Positions 2,724 through 31,700 of a stretch of 32,904 bases of DNA are shown here, piece after piece. The translations under genes were made by a program, and so were the position numbers. The stretch comes from Corallococcus carmarthensis (lineage in GTDB: Bacteria; Myxococcota; Myxococcia; Myxococcales; Myxococcaceae): contig NZ_RAWE01000099.1 of the NCBI RefSeq assembly GCF_003611695.1, positions 1 through 32,904 of the forward strand. Reading direction: 5' to 3'. Each line of letters begins with the position of its first letter. Position 1 is the stretch's first letter. The notes under the pieces are model-generated. The model worked only from the letters and a program-made list of their open reading frames with translations. It had not been told where the DNA came from and made no database searches.

Positions 2724-2730
2724 GGCCGCT

Positions 2731-3668: not shown

Positions 3669-3686
3669 GGCGTGCGTCCTCCTTCG

Positions 3687-4562: not shown

Positions 4563-4563
4563 G

Positions 4564-5055: not shown

Positions 5056-5079
5056 GGCGTTACTCCTCGAATGGGGACG

Positions 5080-7964: not shown

Positions 7965-7980
7965 GTTCATCCTCCTGGTT

Positions 7981-13335: not shown

Positions 13336-14376
13336 ATGCCCATGCCCAAATTCCTGACAGCGCACGGCGCCGCCGCCGCGGTCCTGCTGAGCGCCCTGCC
13401 CGTCTGGGCCCAATCCGCCCTGCCCGGCTTCGAATTGGAGCATCTGGAAATCAATCCCGGCCGGGGCACCGCGGTGATGCGCAACGGCGAACTGCTGGTG
13501 CCCGGCGGCATGAGCCTGGGGCTCGTGGGCCAGTACCAGCAGCTTCCGCTCGTGCTCCTCAACGGCGAACGCCGCCTGGAGGCCGTGCGCAACCGCGCGT
13601 CCTCCATCCTGGCGGGCAGCTACGGGGTGCTGCCGTGGCTGGAGGTGGGCGCGCAGGTGCCCGTGGTGCTGTGGCAGCAGGGAGATGATCCCGGCCCCCT
13701 GGGCCTGACGCCGCTGGCCTCCCAGGGCCTGGGGACTCCGGAGGTGCAGGCGCGCCTGGGGCTGCTGTCCCGGCGCGACGAACACCCCGTGGACCTCTCC
13801 GTGGACCTGGGCGTGGGCCTCCCCATTGGCAGCGCGGCGGTGCTGGGCAGGGATTCGGGCCTGCGCGTGCGCGCCCTGGCCGCCATGGGCACGCAGGTGG
13901 GGTTCCTCAAGCCCACGCTGGAGGCCGGCGTGCTCCTGCGCTCGCGCAATCCGCTCTCCGCGCCGGGCGCCAGCGGACAGGCCCTGGAGATGCGCCTGGG
14001 CGCCGGGGTGACGACGGCCGGACAGGGGCTGCGCGGCGAGCTGGCGGTGAAGGCCGCCTTCGCGGCGGACATGGACCAGCCCGCGGTGGAGCTGCTCGGC
14101 GGCGGGCGCATCCCGCTGTCGGAGGGCCTGGAGCTCCACGCGCTCGCCGGGCCCGGCCTGGGACGCTCGCCGGGCACGCCCATCGCCCGCGTGCTCCTGG
14201 GCGTGACGTTCCGCCAGGAGCCTCCTCCGCGGATGGAGGTGCTCCCGGAGCCCGTGCCCCAGCTGCGGCTGGAGGAGTTCCAGACCCGGCCGGAGTACGT
14301 CCCGGATTCGCGCGTGGAGCCGGTGCCCACCCGCGAGCTGCTTCCCCCCGAACCCGCGCCGCCGTCCCCGCCATGA
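13336..14376 (+). CDS. Outer-membrane beta-barrel protein, first gene of the PAAR operon
   Basis: A 346-aa exported protein. Residues 1-25 form a signal peptide (Lys5, hydrophobic Ala/Leu core, VWA cleavage site before Gln26). From about 30 to 295 the sequence alternates as amphipathic strands ending in short turns: YGVLPWLEVGAQVPVVLW, VDLSVDLGVGLPIG, LRGELAVKAAF, which fits a beta-barrel transporter-like or OmpA-like barrel. After RVLLGVTF the last 45 residues are a Pro/Glu/Arg-rich tail with no peptidoglycan-binding OmpA domain. In-frame ATGs at 13285/13288 would extend the N-terminus by 16-17 residues ahead of the signal peptide. The stop overlaps the next start as ATGA, coupling it to the AMP-binding-like gene. 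Possible roles are outer-membrane docking or self-protection; both are inference. Confidence 0.78.
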   Translation: MPMPKFLTAHGAAAAVLLSALPVWAQSALPGFELEHLEINPGRGTAVMRNGELLVPGGMSLGLVGQYQQLPLVLLNGERRLEAVRNRASSILAGSYGVLPWLEVGAQVPVVLWQQGDDPGPLGLTPLASQGLGTPEVQARLGLLSRRDEHPVDLSVDLGVGLPIGSAAVLGRDSGLRVRALAAMGTQVGFLKPTLEAGVLLRSRNPLSAPGASGQALEMRLGAGVTTAGQGLRGELAVKAAFAADMDQPAVELLGGGRIPLSEGLELHALAGPGLGRSPGTPIARVLLGVTFRQEPPPRMEVLPEPVPQLRLEEFQTRPEYVPDSRVEPVPTRELLPPEPAPPSPP

Positions 14377-16055: not shown

Positions 16056-16441
16056 TGGGAATCCAGGTCGTGTCGGGAGCCCTGCTCCAGTGCAGCTTCG
16101 GTCTGGCGCCGTCCACGCTGTCGGTGCCACCCGTGAACCAGGTGAACGCCACCGCGCCGGCGGCCACCATCATGGACAACATCCCGGGCATGAACGTGCC
16201 GCCCTTCGGCATGTGCCAGTCCCTGGCCAACCCCGCCGTGGCCGCCGCCACCGCCGCCGCCATGGGGGCCCTCACCCCCATGCCGTGCATGCCCGTGACC
16301 GTCGCGCCCTGGGCGCCGGGCTCGCCCACGGTGCTGATCAAGGGCAAGCCGGCGCTCACCGACAAGTCGATGTGCAACTGCGCCTACGGCGGCATCATCA
16401 AGATCAACGTGGCCGGCCAGATGAAGATGCAGGTGAAGTGA
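16055..16441 (+). CDS. DUF4280 PAAR-like spike tip protein
   Basis: A 128-aa protein of the DUF4280 PAAR-like family. Visible hallmarks are the opening GALLQCSFG, a P-rich strand pair, IMDNIPGMNVPPFGMCQS, MPCMPVTVAPWAPGS, and the end SMCNCAYGGIIKINVAGQ. The regularly placed Cys/Met residues could bind a metal as in PAAR tips. These proteins cap the VgrG spike and can carry or recruit effectors. The ATG at 16055 overlaps the previous stop (TGATG). No extension domain is fused, so any cargo would be bound separately, which makes the coupled upstream protein of interest. The gene ends one base before the convergent tssF stop. Confidence 0.9.
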   Translation: MGIQVVSGALLQCSFGLAPSTLSVPPVNQVNATAPAATIMDNIPGMNVPPFGMCQSLANPAVAAATAAAMGALTPMPCMPVTVAPWAPGSPTVLIKGKPALTDKSMCNCAYGGIIKINVAGQMKMQVK

Positions 16442-16442: not shown

Positions 16443-18110
16443 TCACGGCACGGGCACGTAGCGCAGGGGCGCCTCGCGCTGGGGCAGGCGCACCTCCAGC
16501 TCCACCACGTCCTCCGCGCTCCAGACCGCGAGCAGCTCCACCAGCCGGCCGCACAGGAGATCCACCAGCGGCAGCAGCGACGCGTCCATGGGCCCGAAGC
16601 CCAGTTGGTACACGTACTTGAAGCCCGCGGCGCTGCGGGCAAAGGGCTTGGACTTCACGGACACCTCCGTGAGGGACGGCAGCAGCTCCCGGAAGTGCCG
16701 CTGCGCCCGCACGCCCAGCACCTCCAGGAGGAACATCAGGTCCTCGCGCCCCAGGAACCGCTGCGTGCGCAGCGCCAAGAGCTGCAACAGCGCCTGCTGC
16801 CCGTGCTCCACCGGGTTGTCCCCGCCGGGCGCCACCGCGCCCACCAGGCTCCAGGGCACGCCGTCCAGGAAGCGGTCCGCCAGCACGGGCCGGTAGCCCC
16901 GGGCCTCGAAGCGCGGCGGCAGCGGCTGGTGCCACAGGCCGTCCACGCCCAGCCGCACCGGCCGCAGGAACGCGTCCGGCATGTCCAGCGCCAGCCACGA
17001 CGTGCGCGCCAGGCCCTGGCCTTCGTGCTCCAGCTCGTATGTCTCCGCGCCTCCGGAGATGGCGCCAGGGCGCAGGGGGAGCATGCCCTTCGCGTCCAGC
17101 TGGTACACGCCCACGGCCGTGTTCAGCCGGAAGCCCATGGACGGGTCCGGGTGCTGCACCGCGTGCCGCTCCTTCGTGCCGTCGTGCTCCATGGGCGCCG
17201 CCATGGCGCGGTGCAGGTTCACCACCGGCACCGCGTGCGCCACGAACGAGTCCGGCCCCACCACCAGCTCCGACGGCCAGCGGCCCGCCAGGCGCAGGCT
17301 CAGGGTGAAGCCCTGCCAGTTGCGGGGCGCGGGAGGGATGCGGGCCTCCAGGAACAGCTCCTGCTGCGGGAAGTGCAGCAGCTGCCGCAGCCGTTGCAGG
17401 GGGTGTTCGGACGGCTCCGCTTCCGCCGCCACCGGCCGGGGCGCGCCGAAGCGCACCGGGCCTGAGCGCGCGTCGAAGGGCTTCACCTCGTGCTCCACCG
17501 TCCCGTCGTCGAAACACACGGTGGCGGAGCGCACGGCGCTCTTCAGCTGGAAGAACACGGCCAGCGACGCGCGGAAGTCGTTGAGGTGGTTGATGTGCAA
17601 CCGCACCTCCCCCGGCGAGTCGTTGCGCGGAAAGCCGCCCTCGAAGACGAGCCGCAAGAGCGCGCCGTCATCCCCCTGGCGCTCCAGCCGCGCCTGGGTG
17701 AGCCGCACCGGCAACAGCCGCATGGGCGAAAGCGTGCGCAGGGCGAGCGTACCGGTGGGGCCGCCACCCGGGCCCGGGTTGAGGAGGAAGGGCGTGCCCC
17801 GGGGCAACTCCGCGGCGTCCACGAAGCGCGCGTCCGGCTCCGCGCGCAGCATGGCCATGGCGGGCTCGGGATTGAGCAGGTAGGCGAAGTGCTGTTGGAA
17901 CAGCCGCAGCGTGCTCCGCTCCAGTGCCCGCTGGCCCGCCCGGCGCGTGCGCGCGGTGAACAGGGCCATGGCCTCCGTGAGCCGCCGCACGTCCGCGTCC
18001 TCGCCATCCAGCGGCGCCGACGGGTGCAGCGCCGTGTAGCCCAGCCGGAACTTCTCCAGCGCCTGGAGCTCCTCCAGGAACGACGCGTAGAGCGCCTCAT
18101 CCATCCGCAT
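16443..18110 (-). CDS. tssF: Type VI secretion baseplate subunit TssF
   Basis: A 555-aa TssF (VasA/ImpG) protein, the wedge subunit that pairs with TssG and TssK. The N-terminal FLEELQALEKFRLGYTALHP, the DADVRRLTEAMALFTARTRR segment (about 38-57), LRLFQQHFAYLLNPEPAMAML and the LPRGTPFLL strand are family features, as is the later GAVAPGGDNP...LLQLLALRTQRFLG part. Length is slightly below the common 580-630. A second in-frame ATG at 18104 would drop two residues. It is last in the operon tssA-tssG-tssE-vgrG-tssF, 3 bases after the vgrG stop, and it meets the PAAR-like gene tail to tail with a one-base gap and no visible terminator between them. Confidence 0.92.
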   Translation of the reverse strand: MRMDEALYASFLEELQALEKFRLGYTALHPSAPLDGEDADVRRLTEAMALFTARTRRAGQRALERSTLRLFQQHFAYLLNPEPAMAMLRAEPDARFVDAAELPRGTPFLLNPGPGGGPTGTLALRTLSPMRLLPVRLTQARLERQGDDGALLRLVFEGGFPRNDSPGEVRLHINHLNDFRASLAVFFQLKSAVRSATVCFDDGTVEHEVKPFDARSGPVRFGAPRPVAAEAEPSEHPLQRLRQLLHFPQQELFLEARIPPAPRNWQGFTLSLRLAGRWPSELVVGPDSFVAHAVPVVNLHRAMAAPMEHDGTKERHAVQHPDPSMGFRLNTAVGVYQLDAKGMLPLRPGAISGGAETYELEHEGQGLARTSWLALDMPDAFLRPVRLGVDGLWHQPLPPRFEARGYRPVLADRFLDGVPWSLVGAVAPGGDNPVEHGQQALLQLLALRTQRFLGREDLMFLLEVLGVRAQRHFRELLPSLTEVSVKSKPFARSAAGFKYVYQLGFGPMDASLLPLVDLLCGRLVELLAVWSAEDVVELEVRLPQREAPLRYVPVP

Positions 18111-18113: not shown

Positions 18114-19748
18114 CTACTCCCCCTCCTGGACGCGCAGGTACATCCGGCCTTCGGCGACCTCGATGAGCTGGGTGTCCTTCTCCAGGGTGCGCTGGATGCG
18201 CAGCATGGGCTTCGAGTCCTGGTACAGGTGCTGGATGGACGTCTCGCTCTTGTCCGTCTTGCCCAGCAGCAGGTGGTTGCCCTGCGACTCCTTGGGGAGC
18301 CGCGCGCCGGGGCGCCATTCCAGGAAGCGATCCATGCGCGCGTGCTGGTAGCCCAGCGACACCAGCACCCGCGTCCCCTTGTCCGCGGGGAAGTAGAAGT
18401 GCCCGGGCTGCTGGTGCGGCTCATAGGGGATGCGCACCTCCTTGTTCCACAGGTGCAGCTTCACCCGGTACGACTCCACGGACGTCTCCTCGTCCTGGCG
18501 GATCTGATAGGTGCGATCCGCTTCCGCGCCCTCCTCGCTGACCACCCGTCCCTCCGCGAAGAAGGGCCAGCGCGGCGGCCGGAAGTGGGGGCGCCGGAAG
18601 GTGGGGTCCGCGGCCTCCTCCAGCGTGGCCTTCAGCGACATCCGGTAGTCGTTGGCCGTGCTGTCCGGGTCGTGCGCCGCGTCCTCCCCCACCGCGCGCG
18701 CCTCCAGTTCCAGCGTGTGGAGCCGGTACTGCTTGCCGTGCGTCGCGGCCTGCTCGCTGAAGCCGTTGCCCAGCGTGTACAGCCCGTTGAGCACCAGGGC
18801 CACGCGCGGGTAGAGCGCGAAGGTGAGCCGCACCTCGGGCCCCTCCAGGTGCTGGCGCTTCGTCTCCACCGCCTCCCGGTCCGTGAGCGTGCCCTCCAGC
18901 GGAGAGGTGACCAGGCATTCGGTGAGGACGCCCGGGATCGCGTCCGCGTTCTCCACCTTCTTGCGCGCCGTGCCGGCGTCCACGTAGCTGTTGAGCACCC
19001 ACAGCGCGTCGCGGCGCGGCTCCGGGAAGCGCAGGTCCACCTCCTCCACCTCATCCCGCGCGAGCACCAGCGCCTCGCCAGCCTCCGGCTTCGCGTCCGC
19101 GAGCGTGTACTTCCCCTCCGCGTAGTCCAGGAACACGCCCGCGTTCATGCGCGCCTGCACCCAGTGCAGGAAGTCGAGGAAGCTCGCGCCCGAGTCGTCG
19201 TCCGCGCCCAGCCCCAGCGCGTGCAGGGACTGCTTCACCTGCGCCGCCTCCCACTTGTAGGCCACGTCCAGGCCCCCGGGCGTGTTCGCCTGGATGACGG
19301 CCTGGAGCGTCTGGTGCACCCACACCCCGCTGGGGAAGTGGCGGCGCCACAGCATCGCCGCGGGGTCCACCAGGCGGATGCGGTAGCGGCGCTGCATCAC
19401 CGGAGCGTTCTGCACGTTCGCCTGCGAGAGCTCACGCACCTGACGATCCTCCACCCGTCCGATGAGCTTCAGCGGCAGGGCCTCCGCGCCCTCGCGCCCC
19501 TCCGCCTGCGCGCCGTAGCGGCGGTCAATGGTCAGCGTCGCGGTCAGGGGCTTCGTGTCGGTGAAGGGGGTGAAGAGCGTGTCCTCGTCCCCGCTCTCCT
19601 TGCAGAGCACCCACCACTCCACCTGGGCCTCGAAGCCGTAGGACCATGCCTTCACCGACAGGCGCTTGATGCTGCCCGCGGGCAGCGTGAAGGCCTTGTC
19701 CCCGGCCTTGAGCTGCAGCGACACCTTCAGCTGTTCGGTGAACCTCAT
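18114..19748 (-). CDS. vgrG: VgrG (TssI) hub with OB-fold but almost no beta-helix
   Basis: A 544-aa VgrG-like spike protein. Residues 1-390 match the gp27-type hub (RYRIRLVDPAAMLWRR, HQTLQAVIQ, DSGASFLDFLHWVQARMNAGVFLDYAEGKYTL). An OB-fold follows at about 396-490 (GRVVSEEG, YRVKLHLWN, GHFYFPADKGTRVLVSLGYQHARMDRFLEWRPG). Only about 55 residues come after it: NHLLLGKTDKSETSIQHLYQD and one strand pair QLIEVAEGRMYLRV. Standard VgrGs run on into a long three-stranded beta-helix needle, which is missing here. A separate gene at 27188-27766 encodes such a helix. The gene sits inside the core operon between tssE and tssF (ATGA overlap with tssE), so it is a core structural spike rather than an orphan effector carrier. 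Confidence 0.86.
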   Translation of the reverse strand: MRFTEQLKVSLQLKAGDKAFTLPAGSIKRLSVKAWSYGFEAQVEWWVLCKESGDEDTLFTPFTDTKPLTATLTIDRRYGAQAEGREGAEALPLKLIGRVEDRQVRELSQANVQNAPVMQRRYRIRLVDPAAMLWRRHFPSGVWVHQTLQAVIQANTPGGLDVAYKWEAAQVKQSLHALGLGADDDSGASFLDFLHWVQARMNAGVFLDYAEGKYTLADAKPEAGEALVLARDEVEEVDLRFPEPRRDALWVLNSYVDAGTARKKVENADAIPGVLTECLVTSPLEGTLTDREAVETKRQHLEGPEVRLTFALYPRVALVLNGLYTLGNGFSEQAATHGKQYRLHTLELEARAVGEDAAHDPDSTANDYRMSLKATLEEAADPTFRRPHFRPPRWPFFAEGRVVSEEGAEADRTYQIRQDEETSVESYRVKLHLWNKEVRIPYEPHQQPGHFYFPADKGTRVLVSLGYQHARMDRFLEWRPGARLPKESQGNHLLLGKTDKSETSIQHLYQDSKPMLRIQRTLEKDTQLIEVAEGRMYLRVQEGE

Positions 19749-20131
19749 GGCTCGTCCTCCCCCCGCGCCTCTTCCGGAGGCCGTTCGCGCAGGCGGCGCG
19801 AGCCCGGCTCCAACAGCAGGTCCATGGGCTCACGGGAGTCACGCAGCAGCAGGTGCACCACCAGGCCGGGCGCGCCGCTTTCCTTCGCGGGCGCCTCCTC
19901 GATGGACACCACCTCCACGCGGGGCTCATAGCGGGTGAGCGTCTCGCGGATCTCCAGGCCCAGCCCCGCCAGGCGCTCCGCGTCCGAGCGGAAGCCCGTC
20001 TCCGTGAGCCCGAAGCCCGGCAGCACGGAGGCCGCGCCACGCTTGGCCCGCAGCAGGTGGCCCAGGTTGCGGAGCACCGCTTCGCGCGGCGTCTCCACCA
20101 CCCCCAGGAACTTCCGGTGCAGAAAGCCCAC
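19745..20131 (-). CDS. tssE: Type VI secretion baseplate subunit TssE
   Basis: A 128-aa gp25-like protein of the TssE group. It shows a VVETPREAVLRNLGHLLRAKRGAASVLPGFGLTE section (about 12-45), corresponding to the conserved N-terminal helix plus loop, and a two-strand C-terminal part (RVEVVSIEE, LVVHLLLRD). Start is GTG at 20131 with a GGAAGGGG purine run upstream. Fourteen bases separate it from the tssG stop and it overlaps vgrG as ATGA. It would link baseplate wedges to the sheath base, as gp25 does in phages. Confidence 0.85.
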   Translation of the reverse strand: MGFLHRKFLGVVETPREAVLRNLGHLLRAKRGAASVLPGFGLTETGFRSDAERLAGLGLEIRETLTRYEPRVEVVSIEEAPAKESGAPGLVVHLLLRDSREPMDLLLEPGSRRLRERPPEEARGEDEP

Positions 20132-20145: not shown

Positions 20146-21090
20146 CTAGCGTCCGGCTGCCTTCGGCGTGCCCATGCTCATGCCCTGCCGGTCGCCTTCG
20201 GCACGCGGAGGCGCGGCCACCGGCACCGCCGTGTCGCCCAGGAAGATGAGCTGCCGCAGCGGCTTGCCCTCCGCGCCCGGCAGCCGCTCGTAGCCCAGCT
20301 GTCCCCGGGGCCCCAGGCGCGCGGTCCGCCCATGCGCTTGCACCGTCAGGACCACCTCCAGCTGCATCCGCGCGGGGACGAGCAGGGGCAGCACGTGCCG
20401 GTGGAAGCGGTGGCGCACCCGCGCGGGCCAGTCACGCCCCCGCAGGTCCGCTTCCTCGTCCGCGAACAGGTCCACCTGGAAGCCCCCGATGTCCGTCGCG
20501 TACGTGTTGCCCAGGATGCCCGTGCCATCCAGCGGCGTGGGCCCGAAGGTGGGGCGCATGCCGGAGAAGCGCGTCCGGAAGGCGCGGCGGGAACACGTCA
20601 GGCGCAGCTCCGGGAACACCTGCTGGAACAGCCACTGGAGCGTGGCCTGTGAATCCACGCCCACCATGCGCAGGTAGAAGCCCTTCGTGCGCTCCCAGTC
20701 CCCCACCAGGCTCGCGTCCCGTTCGGGGTGCAGCGCGTCCACCAGCGCCCGCAGCAGCCGGTGGTCGAAGAAGCGGATGAAGTCGAGGAACGGCTCCGGC
20801 TCCGGCAGCTGCTCGGCCACCTGGAGGAAGTAGCTGGGCAGGAGCCCCGGCGTGGCCAACAGGCCCAGGTTGAGCGTCACCACCACCCGGCGCACCGGTG
20901 AGACGTGGAACGTCACCTCCTCCACCAGCGACGCGGACGCCACCGGCTCCGGGTTGCCTTCGAAGAGCACCCGGTCCCGGCCATAGCCCTGCGTCTCCAG
21001 AAGCCGCAGCAGCGGCCCCAGGTCGAACTCCTTCGCCCGGGCGCGGATGCGCCGCTCCAGCGGGGACAGCAGCGGCGAGGCGCCGTTCAT
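20146..21090 (-). CDS. tssG: Type VI secretion baseplate subunit TssG
   Basis: A 314-aa TssG (VasB/ImpH)-like protein. Family traits include the FDLGPLLRLLETQGYGRDRVLFEG opening, SLVEEVTFHVSPVRRVVVTLNLGLLATPGLLPSYFLQ (the LGLLGPxGxLPxHY-type motif, about 60-90), FLDFIRFFDHRLLRAL, and the later GNTYATDIGGFQVDLF region with HRHVLPLLVPARMQLEVVL. The ATG at 21090 overlaps the tssA-like stop as ATGA. A long open frame upstream of this ATG covers the tssA-like gene in another frame and is not coding. TssG and TssF together form the baseplate wedge core. Confidence 0.9.
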   Translation of the reverse strand: MNGASPLLSPLERRIRARAKEFDLGPLLRLLETQGYGRDRVLFEGNPEPVASASLVEEVTFHVSPVRRVVVTLNLGLLATPGLLPSYFLQVAEQLPEPEPFLDFIRFFDHRLLRALVDALHPERDASLVGDWERTKGFYLRMVGVDSQATLQWLFQQVFPELRLTCSRRAFRTRFSGMRPTFGPTPLDGTGILGNTYATDIGGFQVDLFADEEADLRGRDWPARVRHRFHRHVLPLLVPARMQLEVVLTVQAHGRTARLGPRGQLGYERLPGAEGKPLRQLIFLGDTAVPVAAPPRAEGDRQGMSMGTPKAAGR

Positions 21091-22073
21091 GATTCGCCGG
21101 GCCCCACGAAGGCGCCCAGGTCCACCTGGTAGAACTGCGACAGCGTGCGCCACTCCATGGAGTCCTTGCGCTCCCAGTGCTCCTGGATGTCCCCCACGTG
21201 GCGGTTGAGCAGCGCGCCGAACGAGGTGAACAGCTCCGGCAGGTAGCGCCGCGGGTCGAAGTCCTCCAGCGTCCGGAGCACGTCGTCGCTCACCATCGCG
21301 GCCTTCTGGAAGTCCCCCCGCTCCACCAGGACCTCGAAGGCCTTGAGCTTGTCGCACAGCTCCAACAGGTGCGCCGACCCACGCAGCTGCAGCGGCCCCG
21401 TCGTGCGGGGGAAAGGCGAGGCGGGAGCGGCCGGTGGCGCGGCGGACTTCGCGCCCCGTCCCTTCGCGGGCGCGGCGGGCTTCGAGGGCTCCGCGGCCGG
21501 CGCGGGAGCCGCCGCGCGCTCCTGCGTCGTCTCCCGCAGCCACTGCCCCAGCCCCGCCAGGCCCTGGGCCCCGTTGCGGAACGCGGGCCCTTCCAGCGCG
21601 GCCTGCAAGGTCTGGATGCCGCGCAGCGCGTCCTTGCGCTTGCCGTCCGTGAAGCCCTTCGTCCACGCCTCCCAGCCGGCGTCCTTCTTGCCGTGGTGAT
21701 ACTTCAGCGCGCTCAGCAGCGTCTGGAACAGCCACGTCAGCGCCTTGTTGAGCAGCACCGCGGGCTTGGACTTGTCCTTCCCCTCGCCCTGCGAGACCTC
21801 CTCCGCCGCCGCGCGCGCGAGCGCGACCAGCACCTCCAGCGCGTCCGGCAGGCGCACGAGCCCGTCCTCGCGCAGCGCCGCGAAGAGGTAGTAGGCCGAC
21901 AGGCGGACCTCGTAGGCCCCCTCAGCGTCCAGGGCCTCGATGGCGTCCGCCGCCTCCGCGTAGGCCTCCCGCTGCACCAGGTCCGCCACCGTGAGGAAGC
22001 GCTGATCATGCGACTCCAGGCGCTCCAGCGGTCCGCCCTCCACGGGGCGCAGGCACAGGCTCAGGTCTCTCAT
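21087..22073 (-). CDS. tssA: TssA-like type VI secretion protein
   Basis: A 328-aa protein resembling TssA/ImpA-VasJ type proteins, which bind baseplate and sheath ends during assembly. The N-terminal half has helix pairs including AYEVRLSAYYLFAALREDGLVRLPDALEVLVAL (about 57-90), comparable to the ImpA_N pattern of a cell apparatus helix plus a GL..GL segment. A flexible Ala/Pro/Lys linker at about 190-230 leads to a C-terminal domain with DFDPRRYLPELFTSFGALLNRH and YQVDLGAFVG, as in short TssA forms. ATG at 22073 was preferred over GTG at 22088, having GGAAAG upstream. It opens the operon that ends in tssF. Which TssA class it belongs to is not certain. Confidence 0.75.
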   Translation of the reverse strand: MRDLSLCLRPVEGGPLERLESHDQRFLTVADLVQREAYAEAADAIEALDAEGAYEVRLSAYYLFAALREDGLVRLPDALEVLVALARAAAEEVSQGEGKDKSKPAVLLNKALTWLFQTLLSALKYHHGKKDAGWEAWTKGFTDGKRKDALRGIQTLQAALEGPAFRNGAQGLAGLGQWLRETTQERAAAPAPAAEPSKPAAPAKGRGAKSAAPPAAPASPFPRTTGPLQLRGSAHLLELCDKLKAFEVLVERGDFQKAAMVSDDVLRTLEDFDPRRYLPELFTSFGALLNRHVGDIQEHWERKDSMEWRTLSQFYQVDLGAFVGPGES

Positions 22074-22128: not shown

Positions 22129-22728
22129 ATGCCCATCGCCAAGCCCGACGTGCTCGAACTCGAATGCAATTGGCAGACCGGGTTTCAATACCGGCCCGGC
22201 TTCCGCGGCGCGCTGGGGTATCTGCTGGAATGGAATGGCTGCGGGGGGCTGAACCTGACGAAGGAGCTCACCCTGTTCTCCCCCACGGTGGGTGACTTCG
22301 GGCCCAAGGCGCAATGCATTGGCCTCATTGAACGGCTGGCCATGAATGGTGCTTCCGGCCCCCTGGACTTCAGCGTGTACGTGGGACGCGTCACGGCCGC
22401 GAACGTGCTCAACCATTTCGCCAAGCCGCTGGAGAACCTGCGCCTGAAGCTGGCGTGGGCCATCATCGACTTCGATGAAGCGGGTGACACCTGGTTCGAG
22501 GCCGCCAAGCTGAAGAGCCCCGCCACCGCCGAGGCGCTGATGGACACGGAAAAAGGCCGCCCCAAGGTCTTCCTGGACAACCAGCCCGCCACGCTGGCCG
22601 ACGACCTGGACATCCGCTTCCACCGCTTCCAGTTCCGGGTGGTGCCCGCGCCCAAGAAGAGCACCACCCTGGAGTTCGCCACCAACTCCCAGGAGCGCCG
22701 CGTCACCAAGTGGGGCTCGGACAAGTAG
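22129..22728 (+). CDS. Hcp-position paralogue, 199 aa, candidate second tube-like protein
   Basis: I do not recognise a standard family by eye, but this protein is clearly a paralogue of the 216-aa protein at 22784-23434. Shared anchors in the same order are CNWQ (13-16) against CDWQ, RP, GYLLE (30-34) against GYLLD, IGLIERL (64-70) against VGLITQL, PLDFSVYV (78-85) against PMDFTVLI, a WFE (122-124) and a closing FxFRVVP strand (167-173) against MTFQVIP. The 216-aa copy sits where hcp normally follows tssC, so both may be divergent Hcp-like proteins. AAGGA lies about 10 bases before ATG 22129; an in-frame ATG at 22099 is also possible. It is transcribed alone and shares a bidirectional terminator with its paralogue. 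Confidence 0.82.
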   Translation: MPIAKPDVLELECNWQTGFQYRPGFRGALGYLLEWNGCGGLNLTKELTLFSPTVGDFGPKAQCIGLIERLAMNGASGPLDFSVYVGRVTAANVLNHFAKPLENLRLKLAWAIIDFDEAGDTWFEAAKLKSPATAEALMDTEKGRPKVFLDNQPATLADDLDIRFHRFQFRVVPAPKKSTTLEFATNSQERRVTKWGSDK

Positions 22729-22734
22729 CCCCCA

Positions 22735-22776
22735 AAGCGGAACGGGGAAGGCGCTTTTCGCCCTCCCCGTCCGCTT
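22735..22776. terminator. Bidirectional hairpin terminator between convergent Hcp-like genes
   Basis: Left arm AAGCGGAACGGGGAAGGCG (22735-22753) pairs with right arm CGCCCTCCCCGTCCGCTT (22759-22776), with a single bulged A and one G-U-type mismatch, closing a CTTTT loop. The stem of about 18 pairs is very strong and sits exactly between two tail-to-tail genes. There is no following T-run on either strand, which is common in GC-rich bacteria. Confidence 0.75.
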
Positions 22777-22783
22777 CAACCGC

Positions 22784-23434
22784 TTACGACTGGCCGCCTT
22801 CGACGTAGCCCCAGGCGTACACGTCCTTGTCCGTCGAGTTGTGCCCGTAGTGGATGTTGCACAGGTGCGCCTTGTCCGGGATGACCTGGAAGGTCATCTG
22901 GCAGAACTTGACGTCCGTGACGCCCACGTTCTCCGGCTCACCCACGTGCAGCATCACCTCGCTGCCCTTCTGGTTCAGGCGGGCGGACATCTCGTTGGGG
23001 GGGCCATTGGCCTCGTCACCAATCGGGTAGCACTTCTCGAACCACTTGCCCGCGGTGCTGTCCCACTCGCAGATCCAGAACTTGAGCTGACGGATCTCCG
23101 TGTTGGTGATGCCGGTGAAGTCCGCCTTGTTCTCCGGCGAGATCAGCACCGTGAAGTCCATGGGGTCGAGCTTGCCGCCCTCCCACTGGAGCTGCGTGAT
23201 GAGGCCCACCGCGCGCACGGCCTTCTTCGCGCCCACGTCCTGCAACGCCACGCCGGCGTAGGCGGGATCACCGACGAACGGGGTGTAGAAGAGGCTGCTG
23301 CTCTTGGGGAAGGCGCCGTCGTCCTTGCCCATCCCCTTGATGTCCAGCAGGTAGCCCACCGGGATGTTCTTCTGGGGGCGCTGCTGGATGGTCTGCTGCC
23401 AGTCACACGAAATGCCAAGCGGTCCATCACCCAT
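22784..23434 (-). CDS. Putative divergent Hcp-like tube protein downstream of tssC
   Basis: A 216-aa protein with a strong ribosome site (GGAGG, about 9 bases before ATG 23434), 32 bases after the tssC stop in the tssB-tssC operon. That slot is where hcp (tssD) is usually found, and no other hcp candidate is in the window. It is strand-rich (VRAVGLITQLQW, PMDFTVLIS, EIRQLKFWICEW, CQMTFQVIP) and about 50 residues longer than a typical Hcp, so an Hcp-like barrel with extra loops is reasonable. I cannot see a clear Hcp signature, so the name rests on position, strand pattern and high-expression context. Seven Cys/Trp-rich positions, including C10, C122, C135, C178 and C192, are unusual for a tube protein. 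Confidence 0.8.
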   Translation of the reverse strand: MGDGPLGISCDWQQTIQQRPQKNIPVGYLLDIKGMGKDDGAFPKSSSLFYTPFVGDPAYAGVALQDVGAKKAVRAVGLITQLQWEGGKLDPMDFTVLISPENKADFTGITNTEIRQLKFWICEWDSTAGKWFEKCYPIGDEANGPPNEMSARLNQKGSEVMLHVGEPENVGVTDVKFCQMTFQVIPDKAHLCNIHYGHNSTDKDVYAWGYVEGGQS

Positions 23435-23466: not shown

Positions 23467-24984
23467 TCAGCCGAGCCGCGCATCCACGCGGAGGTCCACG
23501 TTCATGCCTTCGAACTGGATGTGCGGGAGGACGGAGAGGTTGCAGTGGTACCAGCCCACCTTGCCGGGCACTTCCGCCACGGTGAGGTTGTAGGCCTTGA
23601 ACGGGTAGTAGCGCAGCGTCAGGTCATCCGGATTCACCAGCGTGGTGACGTACCGGGAGATCCACCTGTCCAGCTGCTGCTGCATGTACTGCGCGCCAGC
23701 GGTGCTGCCGATGTTCTCGCGCATGATGGCCTTCACGTAGTGCGCGATGCGGCTGATGGAGTACGTGTAGGCCAGGTTCGTCACCAGCTGCGAATTCTCC
23801 GAGTCCTTCGTGTCCTCGAACACCTTGGCCTTCTTGAGGGACTGGACGCTGAAGAAGACGGCCTCCGCGCTTCCCTTCTTGTGGATGAGCGGGATGAAGC
23901 CGCCGTTGGCCAGCTCCAGCTCGCGGAAGTCCGGGATGGACATCTCCACGGGCAGCTTCATCTCCTCCTCGCCACGCAGGTGCGTCAGGTGCACGGGCAG
24001 GCCCGCCACCAGGCCGCCGCCCTTGGGGCCGCGGATGTGCTGGCACCAGCCGGACGTCGCGAACGAACGCACCAGGTTGCGCGCGAACAGCATGGACGCG
24101 TTGCCCCAGAGGTATTCCTCCTCCTTGTCCCCCTTCACCGCCTCCGTGAAGTTCATCCCAGGGGCCGGGTAGGTCTCCGGGTTGTAGGGCGGCCGGACGA
24201 TGTAGCGCGGCAGCGTGAGGCCCACGTAGGCGGCCTCATCCGTGTCACGCAGCGCGTTCCAGGCGGAGTACTTGGGCGAGTCCAGGAGGCTGGCCACGTC
24301 GCGCAGCTGCGAGACCTCCTTCATGGTGTCGCAGCCGAAGAAGCGCGGGGACACGGACGCCACGAACGGCGCGTGGCTGGCCGCGGCGATCTTCCCCATC
24401 GTCTTGAGCCACAGCATGTCCTGCGGCGTGTTGGCGAACTCGAACAGGCCCACCATCGCGCCGTAGGGGGCGCCGCCGTACTGATCGTATTCAGCGACGT
24501 ACAGCTTCTTGAAGAACTCCGAACCGGCGACGTCCGCCGCGTTCGTCTCCAGGTCGCTGTAGGCCTCCTCCTTGGAGACATCCAGCAGGCTCAGCTCGAT
24601 GTTGGCCTTGAAGTTGGTGTTGCGCACCAGGTCGTTGAGCGCGGTCCACTGCGCCTCCACCTCCTGGAACTCCGGCGCGTGCAGCACCGCATTGAGCTGG
24701 TCCGACACCAGCGCGTCGATGGTGCCGACCAGCTCCTGCACGGTCTGCTTGTCGAAGCGGCCCTCGTCCGTGTCCATGTTGTGGACCATGGCCGCCAGGC
24801 TGGAGACAAAGCGCTCCTCGGGGGTGGCGTCGTCGGGGATGACCAGCAGGTCGGACTGGGCTGCAGGGTCGCGCACGGCGGGCACGGAGCCCAGCCGCAC
24901 GCTGTTGAGGAACAGCGGAAGGTCCAGGGGCACGTCGGCCACGGCGGTCGCCGCGGTGGTGGGAGACGCAGGAGGAGTGGGCAT
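23467..24984 (-). CDS. tssC: Type VI secretion sheath large subunit TssC
   Basis: A 505-aa TssC (VipB) protein, normal length for the family. Diagnostic stretches are LVGTIDALVSDQLNAVLHAPEFQEVEAQWTALNDLV (about 86-121), the EYDQYGGAPYGAMVGLFEF segment, LRDTDEAAYVGLTLPRYIVRPPY, YLWGNASMLFARNLVRSF, SWC-type GWCQHIRGPKGGGLV, and the C-terminal ISRIAHYVKAIMRENIGS...LDRWISRYVT. With TssB it forms the contractile sheath. It lies 53 bases after tssB. A GAGG is found about 9-12 bases before the ATG at 24984. All conserved parts look intact. Confidence 0.97.
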   Translation of the reverse strand: MPTPPASPTTAATAVADVPLDLPLFLNSVRLGSVPAVRDPAAQSDLLVIPDDATPEERFVSSLAAMVHNMDTDEGRFDKQTVQELVGTIDALVSDQLNAVLHAPEFQEVEAQWTALNDLVRNTNFKANIELSLLDVSKEEAYSDLETNAADVAGSEFFKKLYVAEYDQYGGAPYGAMVGLFEFANTPQDMLWLKTMGKIAAASHAPFVASVSPRFFGCDTMKEVSQLRDVASLLDSPKYSAWNALRDTDEAAYVGLTLPRYIVRPPYNPETYPAPGMNFTEAVKGDKEEEYLWGNASMLFARNLVRSFATSGWCQHIRGPKGGGLVAGLPVHLTHLRGEEEMKLPVEMSIPDFRELELANGGFIPLIHKKGSAEAVFFSVQSLKKAKVFEDTKDSENSQLVTNLAYTYSISRIAHYVKAIMRENIGSTAGAQYMQQQLDRWISRYVTTLVNPDDLTLRYYPFKAYNLTVAEVPGKVGWYHCNLSVLPHIQFEGMNVDLRVDARLG

Positions 24985-25037: not shown

Positions 25038-25598
25038 TCACGTCGTCGGCGGCTGGGGGTTCGTCGCGGCCAGCTTCGGCAGGCTCAGCGACTTGAACGC
25101 GGCCAGCTCCGTCTTCAGCTTCTGGACGGCCTCGGGGTTCTGCGCGAGCTGGCGCACCAGCTGGCGGAACTCCTTGCGGTTGTCCAGGTTGCCCTGCAGC
25201 TCCAGCAGCAGCTTGCGCAGCGTGAGCAGCGCGTTGATCTTCGGCACCTGGCGGGACACCTCCACCGGGCTGAAGGACTTCATCGAGTCCAGCTTGAGGT
25301 TCACCTGCAGCGGCGCGGGCGCCGAACCATCCACCGGGTCCTTCTTGTCCACGCGGTTGGGCACGCTGAAGTTCAGCGTCATGCCCATGTTCTGGATGAC
25401 CTGGTTCAGGTTCTTTCCATCCAGGTTGCGGATCTCCCGCTGATCCAGGTCCTTCTTGCGATCGTTGGACGTCCCCCGGGAGAAGTCCCCCATCACCAGC
25501 AGCCGGAACGGAAGCGCCTTGTCCGCCCGGGTGCCATTCACCTGCGTGCGATAGGTCAGCGTGATGCGTGATCTGGGAATTTCATCGGTGATGGCCAT
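25038..25598 (-). CDS. tssB: Type VI secretion sheath small subunit TssB
   Basis: A 186-aa TssB (VipA) protein. It has the family opening IPRSRITLTYRTQVNGTRADKALPFRLLVMGDFSRG (about 8-42), RKKDLDQREIRNLDGKNLNQVIQNMGM, FSPVEVSRQVPKINALLTLRKLLLELQGNLDNRKEFRQLV, all typical. ATG at 25598 follows a GGGGG purine run about 6-10 bases upstream; the open frame beyond it runs into the AT-richer spacer and is not used. As first gene of tssB-tssC-Hcp-like it would drive high, coordinated sheath and tube expression. Confidence 0.96.
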   Translation of the reverse strand: MAITDEIPRSRITLTYRTQVNGTRADKALPFRLLVMGDFSRGTSNDRKKDLDQREIRNLDGKNLNQVIQNMGMTLNFSVPNRVDKKDPVDGSAPAPLQVNLKLDSMKSFSPVEVSRQVPKINALLTLRKLLLELQGNLDNRKEFRQLVRQLAQNPEAVQKLKTELAAFKSLSLPKLAATNPQPPTT

Positions 25599-25906: not shown

Positions 25907-27160
25907 ATGAACCCAGACACACTCGCGCGAGTCCTGTGGCAGGAAGGGCAGACCCTGCTGCCCGAACACTTCCGGGCCCAGGAGGAATCCCTCTCCACGG
26001 AGGCCCGGCGCTACGCGGGGTTCGTGGGCCTGCCGGTGGTGGGCGTGAGCTCACTGCGTTTCAACGACGTGTTACTCGCCAAGGGCTCGGTGGCGCTGGA
26101 GGACCTGACCGCGGTGCTGCCCGGCGGCCACCTGGTGGAGGTGCCGGGCAACGCGGAGGTGACGCCGCTGTCGCTCGAGGAGACGGGCCGCACGCGGGTG
26201 ACGGTGTATCTGCACCTGCTGGCGGTGCTGGAGCCCCGCGAGGATGTATCACCCGCCGGCGAGGAATCCTCCGCCGTGGTGCGCGCGGGACGGCGGCTGT
26301 GCCTGTCGCTGGAGCCGGTGGTGGACGACACGGTGAGCAGCCTGTCGCTGGCCGTCTTCACCCGGAACGCGGACGGGCCCTGGCGGCTGTCCGCCACGCA
26401 CCTGCCGCCGCTGTTGAGCGTGGGCCCCCACCCGTTCCTGGAACCCCTGTTCGAGCAGCTGGACAGCCTGCTCCAGCAGGCGCAGGGGCAGCTGCGCACG
26501 TCGCTGCGCGAGGGCCTGGTGCGAGGCGACCGGCTGGCCAGCGCGCGGCGGGCGCTGTGCGAGGTGCGCAGCCTCCAGGTGCTGCGACAGGACATGCGCC
26601 ACGGCCTGCAACCGCCGCCGTACCCGCTGATGCAGGCGCTGCGGCGGCTGTATTTCGAAACATGCTGCTACCTGGAGGCGGAGCCGGACGACGACCTGCC
26701 CGCGTACGAGCACGAAGCGCCGGGCCCGGGGCTGACGCGGTGGATGGAGCTGCTCACGCGCGGGTTCCGCCCTCAGGCCAGTCCCATGTCGTACCGGGCC
26801 TTCGACTTCCAGGACGGCCACTTCAAGCTCACGCCGCTGCCCCGGGAGACGCCTCCTCCGGACGACTTCTACCTGCTGGTGCGCCGTCACGAGCGCGACC
26901 GGCCCCGCTCCATGGAGGGCGTGAAGCTGGCCAGCCCCCTGCGGCTGCCGGCGGTGCGGCGCCAGGCCTTGAAGGGCGTGCCGTACCGGCACGTGGCGTA
27001 CCCGTCGTTCCCCCACGCCTTCGACGCGGACATCGACTGGTACCAGCTGACACCCCAGAGCGAGGAATGGCAATCCGCGACGCGCGAGGACGGGCTCACG
27101 TTCTTCGCCACGCCGGCGCTCGAAGGAGCGCAGGTGCTCCTCTACTGGCGCAGGGCCTGA
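25907..27160 (+). CDS. tssK: Type VI secretion baseplate subunit TssK
   Basis: A 417-aa TssK (VasE/ImpJ) protein, which connects the baseplate wedges to the TssL-TssM membrane complex. The N-terminal VLWQEGQTLLPEHFRAQEESLSTEARRYAGF (8-38) is the TssK signature (WxEGxxLxPQHFQ-type). It also shows ALRRLYFETCCYLEA (about 244-258) and the C-terminal domain ending LPAVRRQALKGVPYRHVAYPSFPHAFDADIDWYQLTPQSEEW. Length is near the usual 440. ATG at 25907 has only a pyrimidine-rich leader, so translation may start without a normal ribosome site. It is first in the operon with the needle, tssL, tssM and tssJ genes. Confidence 0.93.
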   Translation: MNPDTLARVLWQEGQTLLPEHFRAQEESLSTEARRYAGFVGLPVVGVSSLRFNDVLLAKGSVALEDLTAVLPGGHLVEVPGNAEVTPLSLEETGRTRVTVYLHLLAVLEPREDVSPAGEESSAVVRAGRRLCLSLEPVVDDTVSSLSLAVFTRNADGPWRLSATHLPPLLSVGPHPFLEPLFEQLDSLLQQAQGQLRTSLREGLVRGDRLASARRALCEVRSLQVLRQDMRHGLQPPPYPLMQALRRLYFETCCYLEAEPDDDLPAYEHEAPGPGLTRWMELLTRGFRPQASPMSYRAFDFQDGHFKLTPLPRETPPPDDFYLLVRRHERDRPRSMEGVKLASPLRLPAVRRQALKGVPYRHVAYPSFPHAFDADIDWYQLTPQSEEWQSATREDGLTFFATPALEGAQVLLYWRRA

Positions 27161-27187: not shown

Positions 27188-27766
27188 ATGCCCAAGCTCA
27201 TCTGCATCATCGACATGGACAAGGAGAAGGGCCTCATCCTCACCACCGAGGACAAGGACGGGAAGATCCTCCAGACGGTGAAGATGGACGGCGAGGCCAT
27301 CACCCTGGAGGTGAAGGGTGACAGCGCCACCAGCACCATCGTGCAGAAGCAGGACAGCGTCACGGTGACCTGCAAGTCCTTCGTGCTGAAGGCGGAGACC
27401 ATCGAGGTCACGTCCACGAAGGCGTCGTCGTGGAAGAGCGACGACACGTTCGCGCTGGAGAGCGCCAAGGCCTTCACGGTCACGACGAAGGACGAACTGA
27501 CGCAGAAGGCGGCGAAGGACGCGACCTTGTCCTCGGACAAGGCCGTGACGCTGAAGGCGGCGAAGAAGTTCAGCGTGGAGGGTGACGACATCCAGGTGGA
27601 GGCCAAGAGCGGCGCGGTGGCGCTGAAGGCGCCGTCCATCAAGGCGGAGGGACAGAAGGACGTCGCGGTGGAGGGTGCACAGGTGAAGGTGACCGCGAAG
27701 GCGCAGCTGGCGCTCAAGGCGGACGGCGTGGCGGAACTCAAGGGCGGCATGGTGAACGTGGGCTGA
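27188..27766 (+). CDS. Stand-alone beta-helix needle protein (VgrG C-terminal-like)
   Basis: A 192-aa protein that resembles only the gp5C-type beta-helix of VgrG spikes. After a short start (KLICIIDMDKEKGLILTTEDKDGK) it runs as repeated two-strand units of hydrophobic alternation: ITLEVKGDS, VTVTCKSFVLKAETIEV, FTVTTKDELTQKA, AVTLKAAKKFSVEG, VALKAPSIKAEG, and closes with LALKADGVAELKGGMVNVG, which is how VgrG needles typically end. No hub or OB-fold is present. It lies between tssK and tssL, 27 bases after tssK, 10 bases before tssL. The locus VgrG (18114-19748) lacks this part, so the two products probably assemble into one spike. The fold call is from pattern; pairing with VgrG is inference. 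Confidence 0.83.
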   Translation: MPKLICIIDMDKEKGLILTTEDKDGKILQTVKMDGEAITLEVKGDSATSTIVQKQDSVTVTCKSFVLKAETIEVTSTKASSWKSDDTFALESAKAFTVTTKDELTQKAAKDATLSSDKAVTLKAAKKFSVEGDDIQVEAKSGAVALKAPSIKAEGQKDVAVEGAQVKVTAKAQLALKADGVAELKGGMVNVG

Positions 27767-27776: not shown

Positions 27777-28409
27777 ATGAAGCTCGAGCACTGGCAGGTC
27801 GTCTTCACGCAGTACCGGCAGGCCCAGTCCGTCCTGGACGGGTGGCTGCCGCAAACGGCGCCCGGCACGGCCGCGGGGCTCCTGGGCCGCGAGGGCCTGC
27901 GCAGGCTCCACGACGAGCTCCTGGAGGTCGTGGAGCGGCTGCGCGCGGGCCTGGGCGCCCACGCCCGCGACGAGGAGGTGCAGGACGCGCTGCGGCCCTT
28001 CACGTACCTGGTGGACGAGCGCGTCCTCTTGCGGCTCGCGGACGCGGAGCAGCCGCTGTGGCCGCTGTTGCAGTACCGCCTCTTCGGAGAGGACGGCGGC
28101 GGCGAGGCCTTCTACACGCTGGCGGATCAACGGCTGGACGAGCCGGGTTCGCCCCCGTTGCTCTTCGAGATGCTCCACTTCTGCATCACGGCGGGCTTCG
28201 GAGGCCGCTACCTGGGCCACACGGCGAAGCTGCGCGAGTACCAGGAGCGGCTGTCGGCGCGCATCGTCACGCCCCCGCCTCCGCCCGCCCCCGCGGCGTC
28301 CGGCGAGTCCACCGGGCCGCTGCTCTACGCCTTTCCCGCCCGCTACTACGCGGCCAGCGCCGCGAGCGTGCTGGGTCTACAGGGGCTGCTCTGGTGGGTG
28401 ACCCGGTGA
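27777..28409 (+). CDS. tssL: Type VI secretion membrane protein TssL (DotU/IcmH type)
   Basis: A 210-aa TssL. The cytoplasmic DotU domain shows PFTYLVDERVLLRL (about 73-86), WPLLQYRLFGEDGGGEAFYTL, and LLFEMLHFCITAGFGGRYLG (about 126-146), the strongest family motif. After a Pro-rich linker (165-175) one membrane segment, YYAASAASVLGLQGLLWWV, ends the protein three residues later, so it is a tail-anchored inner-membrane protein with essentially no periplasmic part and no peptidoglycan-binding extension. GAGGGGGG precedes ATG 27777. It joins TssM and TssJ in the trans-envelope complex. The stop overlaps the next start as GTGA. Confidence 0.92.
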   Translation: MKLEHWQVVFTQYRQAQSVLDGWLPQTAPGTAAGLLGREGLRRLHDELLEVVERLRAGLGAHARDEEVQDALRPFTYLVDERVLLRLADAEQPLWPLLQYRLFGEDGGGEAFYTLADQRLDEPGSPPLLFEMLHFCITAGFGGRYLGHTAKLREYQERLSARIVTPPPPPAPAASGESTGPLLYAFPARYYAASAASVLGLQGLLWWVTR

Positions 28410-28735: not shown

Positions 28736-31700
28736 ATGGATGTCATCAAGAAGCTGATCGCGTTCATCCCACCGAAGTGGAAGCCCTACGCACTGCTCCT
28801 CGTGGCGCTGCTGGCCATTGGCATCCCGCTGTTCCTCGTGTGGCGCGCGAAGCGCAAGAGCGCGCCGGCCGGAGGGGCCGCCGCGCCGGAGCCCCTGGCG
28901 AAGAACCGGCTGCGCAAGGTGCGCGAGAAGTTCCTGGCCGGGCTGCCGCTGCGCCACCGCGTGGCGGTACGGGACCTGCCAGGTGTGGTGGTGCTGGGGC
29001 CGGCGGGCGCGGGCAAGTCGCGGCTCATCGAGCTGGACCTGGACTGGAAGCGGCAGGCGCGGCAGTTCCTGCCCAGCCTCCTCTCGGACACGCTGCTCCA
29101 GGTGTACCTGGGCGCGGACGTCGTCGCCCAGGAGGTGTCCCCGCAGCTGCTGGAGGATGAGACCCCCCAGGCGCGCGAGGCCCTGCGCCGGCTGTGGAAG
29201 GACAGCTTTGGAGGCGGTCAGCAGGCGCTGGCGGTGCTGGTGCTGGACGCGCGCTGGCTGCAGGACACGCCCCCGGACGAGGTGCGCCGGGCGGCGCAGC
29301 TGTTGCGCGGCAAGCTCAACCTGCTCGCGGAGGTGCGCGGCGGCGCGCTGGAGACGCGCGTGTGCCTCACCCACCTGGACGAGCGCGAGGGCTACGCGGA
29401 CTTCGCGCGGCTGCTCCGCGCGTACCACGTGCCCCTGCGCTTCCCGCTGCCCGAGCCCGGCCAGGAGGGAAAGCTGTCCACGCTGCTCAAGACGCAGGAG
29501 CAGTACCTGGCGCTGGGCCTGACGGCGCTGCCGGTGGAGGCCTTCGAGCGGCTGGAGCGCTTCTATTCGGAAGGGCACGCCCCCTTCGAGTCGCTCGCGC
29601 GCTTCGTGGCGGCGCTGATGGAGGGCCAGACGCTGGCGTACGCGCCCAGGCTGGCCACGGTGTCGCTGTCGTCCGCGGACGCGGAGGCGCGCGACCCGGA
29701 CGTGCTGTCGGTGTCGGCGGAGGCCAGCACCGCGAAGATGGTGCGCGAGCGCTACCTGCACACGCACCTGCGCCGGGCGGTGCTCCTGGGGCTTGCGTGC
29801 GCGCTGCCGCTGCTGGCCGCGTACGGGCACTTCGCGTGGCGGCTGGGGCAGGCACGCACGCGCGTGCAGCGCTTCGAGGACATGGTGCAGCGCATGCGCG
29901 ACCAGGGCCAGGAGGTGTCCGGGGCCGCGGTGCAGGATCCGGTGATGGCCGCGGGCCAGTCCCTGGACTCGCTGTGGCGGGCCATGGGCACCTGGCCGCT
30001 GTTGCGCTACAGCTTCAGCGACGCGCGCGAGGACCTGCGTCAGCGCCTGGCGCGAGGCATCCGCGAGGCCCACATCCGGCCCGCGCTGGAGAAGTGCCAC
30101 CGCCAGCCGGAGACGTGCCGGCCGGAGCAGGTCGTCTACCTGCTGGCCGCGCTGCACGGCTCGCGGGACGAGGCGCTGGGGCAGCTGGTGCTGTCCAGCC
30201 TGAAGACCCGTCCCACCTGGAGCTTCATCCCGGAGGCCAGCAACGCCACGCCCGCGGCGGAGGGCGCGTCGCTGGACGCGGGCCGTTCGTGGGTGGCGGC
30301 GGTGGGGCTCAGCGAGTCGCTGGTGGCGGACTACGTGCTGATGAGCGACCCGCCGTGGAAGGCGCCGGACACGCCGGAAGCCGACTGGGCCCGCTGGCCC
30401 TTCCCGGAGCCGCTCACGCTGGAGGCGCAGCTGGCCCCGTGGCAGGCGCACCTGCGGCGGTTGCAGGACCTGGTGCAGAACCGGGCCGTGGAGCCGCACG
30501 ACCTGGAGCGGCTGGACGCGGACCTGGAGGCGATGCAGGACGAGCGCCGCCGGCTCCAGTCCCTGCTGGACGACAGCTCGCGCTTCAACAGCCTGCCGCG
30601 CGCGCTGGAGCTGCTGGCCGCCTCCGAGGCGCGCGTGGACACCAGCCGCTTCCGGGGCATCCCCTCCACGCTCAAGACGGTGGCGTGGATGAGCGACCAC
30701 CGCGAGGTGCTGACGGCCGTGCTGCGCATGGAGGAAGAGGCCTACCTGGGCGTGAAGGCGGTGCAGAAGATGAGCGTGGCGGAGCTGCTGGTGCGCGACG
30801 GCCTGTGGCTGCCGGGCAGCGGTCCCGCGGTGCTCCAGGTGCCGGTGCTCCAGAGCACCTTCGAGTTCCGCCCCAAGGACGGCTCGCGGCTCTTGCACCA
30901 GGCGCTGCTGCGCTACCACGAGAAGACGGGGCGCCTGCCCTTTGGAGCGGTGGCGGGCGAGGAGGCGGTGGCGGCGAAAGGAAGCGCCAGCCTCGCGGCG
31001 GACCGGCTGGAGTTCGACACGCGGCTTCGCCCGCTGGTGGACGAGTTCACCACGCGCATCAAGGGCTCGGGGCTGCCGGTGGAGGAGGTATCGCAGCGCC
31101 AGGAGCACGTGCGCCGCAAGGTGAACCAGTTCGCGTTCCAGTACCGCAACCGCCTGTTCCAGCGCGTGTCCGGCTACCGCTTCCAGGCGGTGATTCCCGC
31201 GCTCTTGCCGGAGGAGCTGTCGCGCCTCACGCAGCCGTCCTCGGAGCTGGTGGACATGCTGCGCGACGTGGCCCAGGGCGTGGCGCTGGAGCCGTTGGAC
31301 GGGCCCTTCTACGAAGCGCTGCGCAACGCGGTGGCGCCCTTCAAGCCCATCGCCACGGTGATGAAGCCGGACGAGAGCGGCAACTACACGGCGCTCAACC
31401 CCTACCGCGCGCTGGTGGCCCAGCTGTCGGACGAACTGAACGCGGTGCCCCGCACGGGCGTGGTGCCCGCGGAGGCGACGGCGTCGCTCAACGGAGGGCT
31501 GGCCACGGGCGGAGCCCAGCCGGCCAGCGGGGCCGCGAAGCTGCCGGAGCTGCTCACGCCGCTGGGGAGGCTGGCCTTCGCGATGATGCTGGAGGACGAC
31601 ACGTCCTACCTGCGCAAGGTGGACGCGTGGCTGGATCAGCAGGGGCTCATCGGAGAGCTGCGCCAGCCCTTCCGCCAGCCGTTCCTCGCGGTGCGCGAGC

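Follow-up and report, generated by a model that had tools for sequence, protein, structure and literature searches.

Two related genes in the hcp position of a T6SS locus

The DNA analyzed here, hereafter the window, is a stretch of 32,904 nucleotides from Corallococcus carmarthensis (NCBI RefSeq assembly GCF_003611695.1, 10.8 Mb; contig NZ_RAWE01000099.1, positions 1 to 32,904), a member of the myxobacteria, which are predatory soil bacteria. A type VI secretion system (T6SS) locus spans ~13.3 kb to the window's right end. On the minus strand are tssB, tssC, the gene of a protein that we call A, an iglI-family gene, a tssG-like gene, tssE, a candidate hub gene, and tssF, while the plus strand carries tssK, a short vgrG, tssL, and tssM, together with the gene of a second protein, B, and a DUF4280 gene (Table 1). 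A lies immediately behind tssC, and B, convergent with A, is flanked by A and the iglI-family gene.

The first-pass annotation of this sequence had described A as a protein encoded after tssC that lacks an Hcp signature, and B as its convergent relative sharing a series of motifs in the same order. Both descriptions, and the coordinates given for the two genes, are borne out. Because neither protein matched any Pfam or NCBIfam model at E ≤ 1, A and B are considered to lack an Hcp signature. The motifs CDWQ/CNWQ (A/B), RP, GYLLD/GYLLE, VGLI/IGLI, PMDF/PLDF, WFE, and FQVIP/FRVVP follow one another in the same order in the two sequences. Compared as a single pair, A and B share 25% identity (BLASTP E 4e-16), and profiles of their orthologs, built from 8 sequences per side, align over 185 columns with a profile-profile probability of 99.8% (E 1e-28). 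By sequence comparison, then, the similarity of A and B exceeds chance and indicates that they are convergently arranged paralogues. Sequence searches of solved structures returned nothing credible from A alone, from the A/B profile, or from the profile of S, a third relative described below.

The two proteins had also been called Cys-rich, which holds in a mild sense for the individual sequences: A has 5 cysteines (2.3%) and B has 3 (1.5%), where other proteins of the locus mostly have 0–1% and the PAAR-like protein 3.9%. As a trait of the family it is not supported. Across the first-aligned 16 A/B rows, the single invariant cysteine is that of the N-terminal CxW motif, and this motif is absent from the A protein of genome G131 and from 13 aligned S proteins. 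The idea of a metal-binding or cysteine motif was rejected on these grounds.

Predicted folds of A and B

Structures were predicted from an alignment of 14 sequences (7 A and 7 B). Both models are beta-rich, with one helix of at least 4 residues each. The model of B (predicted local distance difference test score, pLDDT, 83; predicted template modeling score, pTM, 0.83) has as its top Foldseek match in the PDB the Francisella tularensis pathogenicity island protein C, IglC (E 6.9e-5, probability 1.00, TM-score 0.64), which is also its sole match there at E ≤ 0.001. With VIA-align, B is superimposed on IglC over 182 residues (Z 14.4, root-mean-square deviation 3.4, 12% identity in the structural alignment) and on the best ordinary Hcp, an Hcp1 chain, over 137 residues (Z 9.3). 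Models that have no clear match typically reach a best Z of 7–8 with this method, and B stands clearly above that level.

The best VIA-align match of A is an Hcp1 chain as well (Z 9.2, 138 residues). Given the level that unmatched models typically reach, the consistency of the match list for A outweighs the Z value itself. Its first 14 rows (Z 9.2–6.9) comprise 9 Hcp-titled or Hcp-holding entries, 3 other T6SS entries, 1 uncharacterised Burkholderia protein, and 1 GspE entry, the last two of which we take to be Hcp-type. Phage tubes and those of extracellular contractile injection systems (eCIS) come after these 14 rows, and a Myxococcus xanthus sheath entry is also found among the rows of A. 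The rows listed for A, the weaker of the two models, do not include IglC (PDB 2qwu), which is not informative in either direction. By prediction, both A and B carry a tube-type (Hcp/IglC-like) fold, and neither model is unlike the Hcp barrel.

S, a third member of the family in a second T6SS

The A/B profile also picks up S, a single protein of ~193 aa encoded in other loci, with profile-profile probabilities of 98.1% to A and 97.4% to B. In the loci read, S lies between tssC and tssK, and the tube-gene position behind tssC is common to A and S. These loci hold relatives of the window's proteins, among them IglI, DUF4280, the short VgrG, the hub, TssF, TssG, TssL, and TssM. Contig C98 of the source genome itself carries such a second system, an IglI-type, Francisella-like T6SS in which S is the one tube gene. 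With an orphan in G066 included and A/B places excluded, S occurs in 52 of 195 genomes of the phylum, a number that the A/B profile search of these genomes undercounts, since at most 15 candidates were scored per genome; this search missed the S of the source genome. Genes of L073–L075 (lower-GC contigs) were taken from a plain scan for open reading frames.

A tree of A, B, and S, midpoint-rooted and with bootstrap values that had not settled, recovers B as a clade (97/97), S together with the G066 protein (100/99), and S alone (86/92). As A forms one clade at only 54/8, with long branches, a single duplication behind A and B is consistent with the tree but not shown by it.

The orphan S-like protein of G066 has a lipoprotein-type start, and on its 18.9 kb contig no further relatives of proteins encoded in the window were found. 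S-like proteins annotated as hypothetical are also found on plasmids of Piscirickettsia salmonis, a fish bacterium related to Francisella (29–32% identity in the 20 listed of 41 records), and in the two plasmid records read no T6SS genes are annotated around the S-like gene.

Distribution of the pair and its association with IglI

In a set of 59 genomes, 8 carry the A/B pair and a ninth, G001, has B at a contig end. Across the 195 genomes, an uncut pair is found in 12, of which 7 belong to the genus of the source organism, 4 others to its family, and 1 (G187) to a distant family. Twelve of the 13 A/B loci carry both genes; in the remaining one, that of G001, the contig ends inside B. B lies on the strand opposite A in 10 of the 12 uncut loci; in Archangium the two follow each other behind tssC on one strand, and in G187 B is ~10 kb from A, near tssM. 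The named loci with the closest relatives (n = 6) come from 4 Corallococcus, a Myxococcaceae metagenome-assembled genome, and Archangium lansinium.

IglI scores above its cut-off in 53 of the 195 genomes, the named members of which are myxobacteria. An A/B place (13) or an S place (54) lies within 12 kb of 67 of the 71 IglI places above cut-off, and the other 4 are gene fragments with partial profile matches whose complementary part adjoins S in the same genomes. Conversely, a single A/B/S place of 79, the orphan in G066, has no IglI nearby. This count uses 54 rows of the S search, out of 62, the 8 left aside being A/B places; from the A/B search it uses 25 rows out of 43, the 18 left aside being S or G066. 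IglI-type T6SS loci and the A/B/S tube family go together in these genomes, and both types of system, A/B and S, occur together in 11 of them.

Because of the Hcp/IglC-like predicted folds, the position behind tssC, and this co-occurrence with IglI-type loci, we consider it likely that A and B replace Hcp as divergent proteins of the inner tube in a Francisella-like (IglI-type) T6SS; of the possibilities raised in the first-pass annotation, that of divergent tube subunits thus finds support. Several points weigh against this reading. The model of A is mediocre (pLDDT 63, pTM 0.71), Foldseek alone found no PDB match for it at E ≤ 0.001, and the models of both proteins are of monomers. Neither A nor B was matched by the sequence profiles of Hcp or IglC. 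Lastly, A evolves faster than B across genera (27–32% versus 42–47% identity), which is unexpected for a bulk tube subunit; TssC retains 73–77% over such comparisons, and S 53–74% in its own system.

In a rival reading, A and B do not build the tube, which is supplied by a canonical or other hcp gene elsewhere. The canonical Hcp family, PF05638, does match in 5 of the 9 genomes in the 59-genome set that carry the pair, and in the 11 genomes that have both types of system S could in principle serve both. Set against this are the predicted tube folds of A and B, their linkage to IglI loci, and the distribution of the canonical protein. PF05638 has no match in the other 4 pair-bearing genomes (G000, G001, G005, and G010), of which G005 is a single contig, and in the 5 genomes where it does occur, it is separated from the pair by megabases (G026) or sits on a different contig; among the 50 genomes of the set that lack the pair it matches in 9. 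Canonical Hcp does not track the A/B pair. Moreover, the pair occurs without S in G131 and G187, although PF05638 was not searched in either. We regard a tube supplied from elsewhere as very improbable. The earlier statement that no standard Hcp is present stands insofar as PF05638 matches nothing in the source genome at E ≤ 0.001, and must be qualified insofar as the second T6SS, on C98, has the related tube gene S.

Comparison with known systems

The Francisella T6SS is taken as the representative of the subtype T6SSii in the accessible text of PMC5924787 and PMC5813230, and an excerpt of PMC9600919 places it ‘in a class by itself’. The locus in the window shares with it an IglI-family protein (240.7 bits against a cut-off of 100) and a PAAR-like tip protein of the DUF4280 family, a domain that has been reported in IglG (PMC5349215, and the accessible part of PMC5014421). 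The window also holds a VgrG-like protein of 192 aa and a separate, weakly PdpA-like candidate hub. Nothing in the source genome scores above the cut-off for ClpV, which Francisella lacks according to the accessible text of PMC5813230; the best of 8 matches reaches 845.6 bits against a cut-off of 884.95, and we take these 8 to be of the ClpB type.

Like IglC, whose predicted counterpart in fold B is over nearly its full length, the A/B system has its tube gene behind both sheath genes and keeps the company of IglI, a DUF4280 PAAR-like protein, and a short VgrG. It differs in having two paralogues rather than one, in its myxobacterial host, and in the low identity of B to IglC in the structural alignment. 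The IglC family, PF11550, has no match at A or B, and its only match in the genome lies elsewhere, below cut-off (E 0.5). On the results for IglI, DUF4280, VgrG, and ClpV, we therefore term the machine Francisella-like, and, for want of a PF11550 match, do not file A and B as IglC. With canonical Hcp (TssD), A and B share the predicted tube fold, the locus position, and a likely role, but they have no PF05638 match, are ~200 aa long against a profile of 129 positions, and, in the case of B, score lower than against IglC.

In eCIS (Afp1/Afp5, CIS1/CIS5), as in phage T4 (gp19/gp54), there is one abundant tube protein and one adaptor. The eCIS tubes resemble the A/B pair in having two tube-fold paralogues per machine, whereas A and B have no match in the gp19 or CIS5 families and belong to a T6SS with TssL and TssM. 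A phage origin of A and B was rejected: pattern matches in viral contigs yielded no confirmed relative, phage records contained no relative of B, and no PHROG matched A, B, or S with an E below 0.4. A plasmid search with B found nothing.

Possible division of labor between A and B

If both are tube proteins, A may be the bulk subunit and polymerize within the sheath of TssB and TssC. B would then be a minor, tube-like component, its most plausible role being that of an initiator or adaptor joining the hub-spike (the PdpA-like protein and the short VgrG) to the A tube. B might make up the first ring or rings at the hub, much like Afp5 or gp54. The codon index is 0.805 for A, 0.822 for TssC, and 0.821 for S, compared with 0.667 for B, and is higher for A than for B in 10 of 10 pairs. 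Synonymous divergence (dS) is lower for A than for B in 5 of 6 comparisons, with the reverse in L040, and B has the highest value in 3 of the 6; the ratio of nonsynonymous to synonymous divergence (dN/dS) for A and B is 0.11–0.54 in five comparisons with Corallococcus-type loci. From position and codon use, we give this assignment of roles about an even chance of being right.

These data call for caution on several counts. The codon index is rough, with the ribosomal-cluster reference averaging 0.746 and the bulk sheath protein TssB reaching 0.754, and the 10 pairs come from related species. In addition, the second system has one tube gene and, in the accessible text of PMC5924787, the Francisella tube is given as IglC alone, so that an adaptor is not generally needed.

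Two other arrangements would leave A and B as tube proteins. They might co-assemble, as hetero-rings or alternating rings, into a mixed tube of which both are bulk components. The presence of both genes in every uncut locus and their tandem order behind tssC in Archangium would suit such a tube; the one-directional codon index does not, and a fixed stoichiometry is disfavored by the opposite strand of B in most loci and by its distance from A in G187, so we think a mixed tube unlikely. Alternatively, one protein could form the tube and the other be a specialized, secreted tube-like cargo or carrier, with a fast-evolving A as cargo and a conserved B as tube, or the reverse. When 16 proteins of the locus are compared between genera, A shows the lowest conservation, as expected of a protein exposed to targets; a few identities in this comparison are lowered because some genes are cut at locus ends. 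Orphan S-like genes, including the lipoprotein-like form, exist outside IglI loci. Yet neither protein has an obvious extra domain, both are near fold length, and A occupies the tube-gene position common to S, which makes a cargo role rather unlikely. The more general proposal, a T6SS tube built from two dedicated paralogues, a bulk protein and an initiator or adaptor, comparable to the tubes of several proteins in phages and eCIS, we advance tentatively, as a possibility somewhat short of probable.

Other features of the window

The candidate hub would supply the part missing from the short VgrG, and its likeness to PdpA is a weak lead from sequence. The 560-aa AMP-binding-like protein was set aside as hub, the candidate hub fitting PdpA better, though weakly. 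The gene of the 560-aa protein occurs in both T6SS subtypes, often beside the DUF4280 gene, and its product is possibly an effector or spike adaptor. A relative of the neighboring secreted-looking protein adjoins T6SS genes in 11 of 11 further paired-type genomes read (G001 included) and in 1 of 4 S-type loci, and was not found in G187. A GGAGG motif lies close upstream of the A start, and AAGGA ~10 bases from the B start; a hairpin between the two convergent genes is a possible shared terminator, which a consensus terminator scan did not detect. An eCIS-type, phage-tail-like cluster, separate from the T6SS, occupies the left of the window. Such a cluster also stands beside the T6SS in G001, G002, G006, and G012 (in part), with a fragment in G005, and is absent from the stretch read of G010.

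Table 1. Features of the window, with the matches on which each assignment is based.
Feature	Position	Strand	Basis or remark
eCIS-type cluster	3-9939	-	phage-tail-like
gp19-type tube (eCIS)	4564-5055		
second tube-type protein (eCIS)	5080-5643		CIS5 match below cut-off
contractile sheath (eCIS)	5643-7895		
secreted-looking protein	13336-14376	+	weak match to outer membrane exchange protein TraB, E 2e-4, 19.5 bits (cut-off 700)
AMP-binding-like protein	14373-16055	+	560 aa; partial AMP-binding (acyl-CoA ligase) match
DUF4280 PAAR-like tip protein (IglG domain)	16055-16441	+	PF14107 E 1e-34, above cut-off; IglG model NF041248 below
TssF-like	16443-18110	-	Pfam above cut-off, NCBIfam below
candidate hub, weakly PdpA-like	18114-19748	-	PdpA best of 177635 PDB sequences, E 0.0098, 88 residues
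TssE/gp25-like	19745-20131	-	Pfam above cut-off, NCBIfam below
TssG-like baseplate protein	20146-21090	-	TssG-named chain E 7e-4; ‘putative type VI secretion protein’ E 5e-4; ~45 residues each
IglI-family protein	21087-22073	-	NF041244 E 3e-71; start as given by the gene caller
protein B	22129-22728	+	199 aa; predicted to fold like IglC; paralogous to A; suggested role, minor subunit of the tube (initiator or adaptor)
hairpin, possible shared terminator	22729-22785		-30.5 kcal/mol, z -5.27; no classical T-run
protein A	22784-23434	-	216 aa; fold predicted as Hcp/IglC-like; in the position of hcp; suggested role, bulk subunit of the tube
TssC/VipB large sheath subunit	23467-24984	-	Pfam and NCBIfam above cut-off
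TssB/VipA small sheath subunit	25038-25598 (open reading frame to 25742)	-	Pfam and NCBIfam above cut-off; start as given by the gene caller
TssK baseplate protein	25907-27160	+	Pfam and NCBIfam above cut-off
short VgrG, spike part only	27188-27766	+	family matches weak, below cut-offs; profile matches VgrG-type chains in their C-terminal part, best E 1.4e-4
TssL/DotU, divergent	27777-28409	+	Pfam above cut-off, NCBIfam below
TssM/IcmF, divergent	28736-32437	+	IcmF_helical above Pfam cut-off, IcmF_C below; NCBIfam below

Implications

A T6SS of M. xanthus has been described with an Hcp (accessible text of PMC5801462), and among the literature matches listed, covering titles and abstract openings with subscription papers outside the scope, none concerned IglC-like proteins or an IglI-type T6SS in myxobacteria. 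Single genes of these loci may already be named in databases, as the NCBI IglI family model already reaches these genomes. Several hallmarks of the Francisella T6SS occur together in another phylum, the Myxococcota, and the mechanism and evolution of Francisella-like systems could be studied in myxobacteria, which as soil bacteria not known to cause disease are safe to work with. The paired version poses a testable question, namely whether a T6SS tube can be a polymer of two proteins. If so, a tube of two paralogues would represent a mechanistic intermediate between phage tails and the one-protein tubes of T6SS, in predatory myxobacteria.
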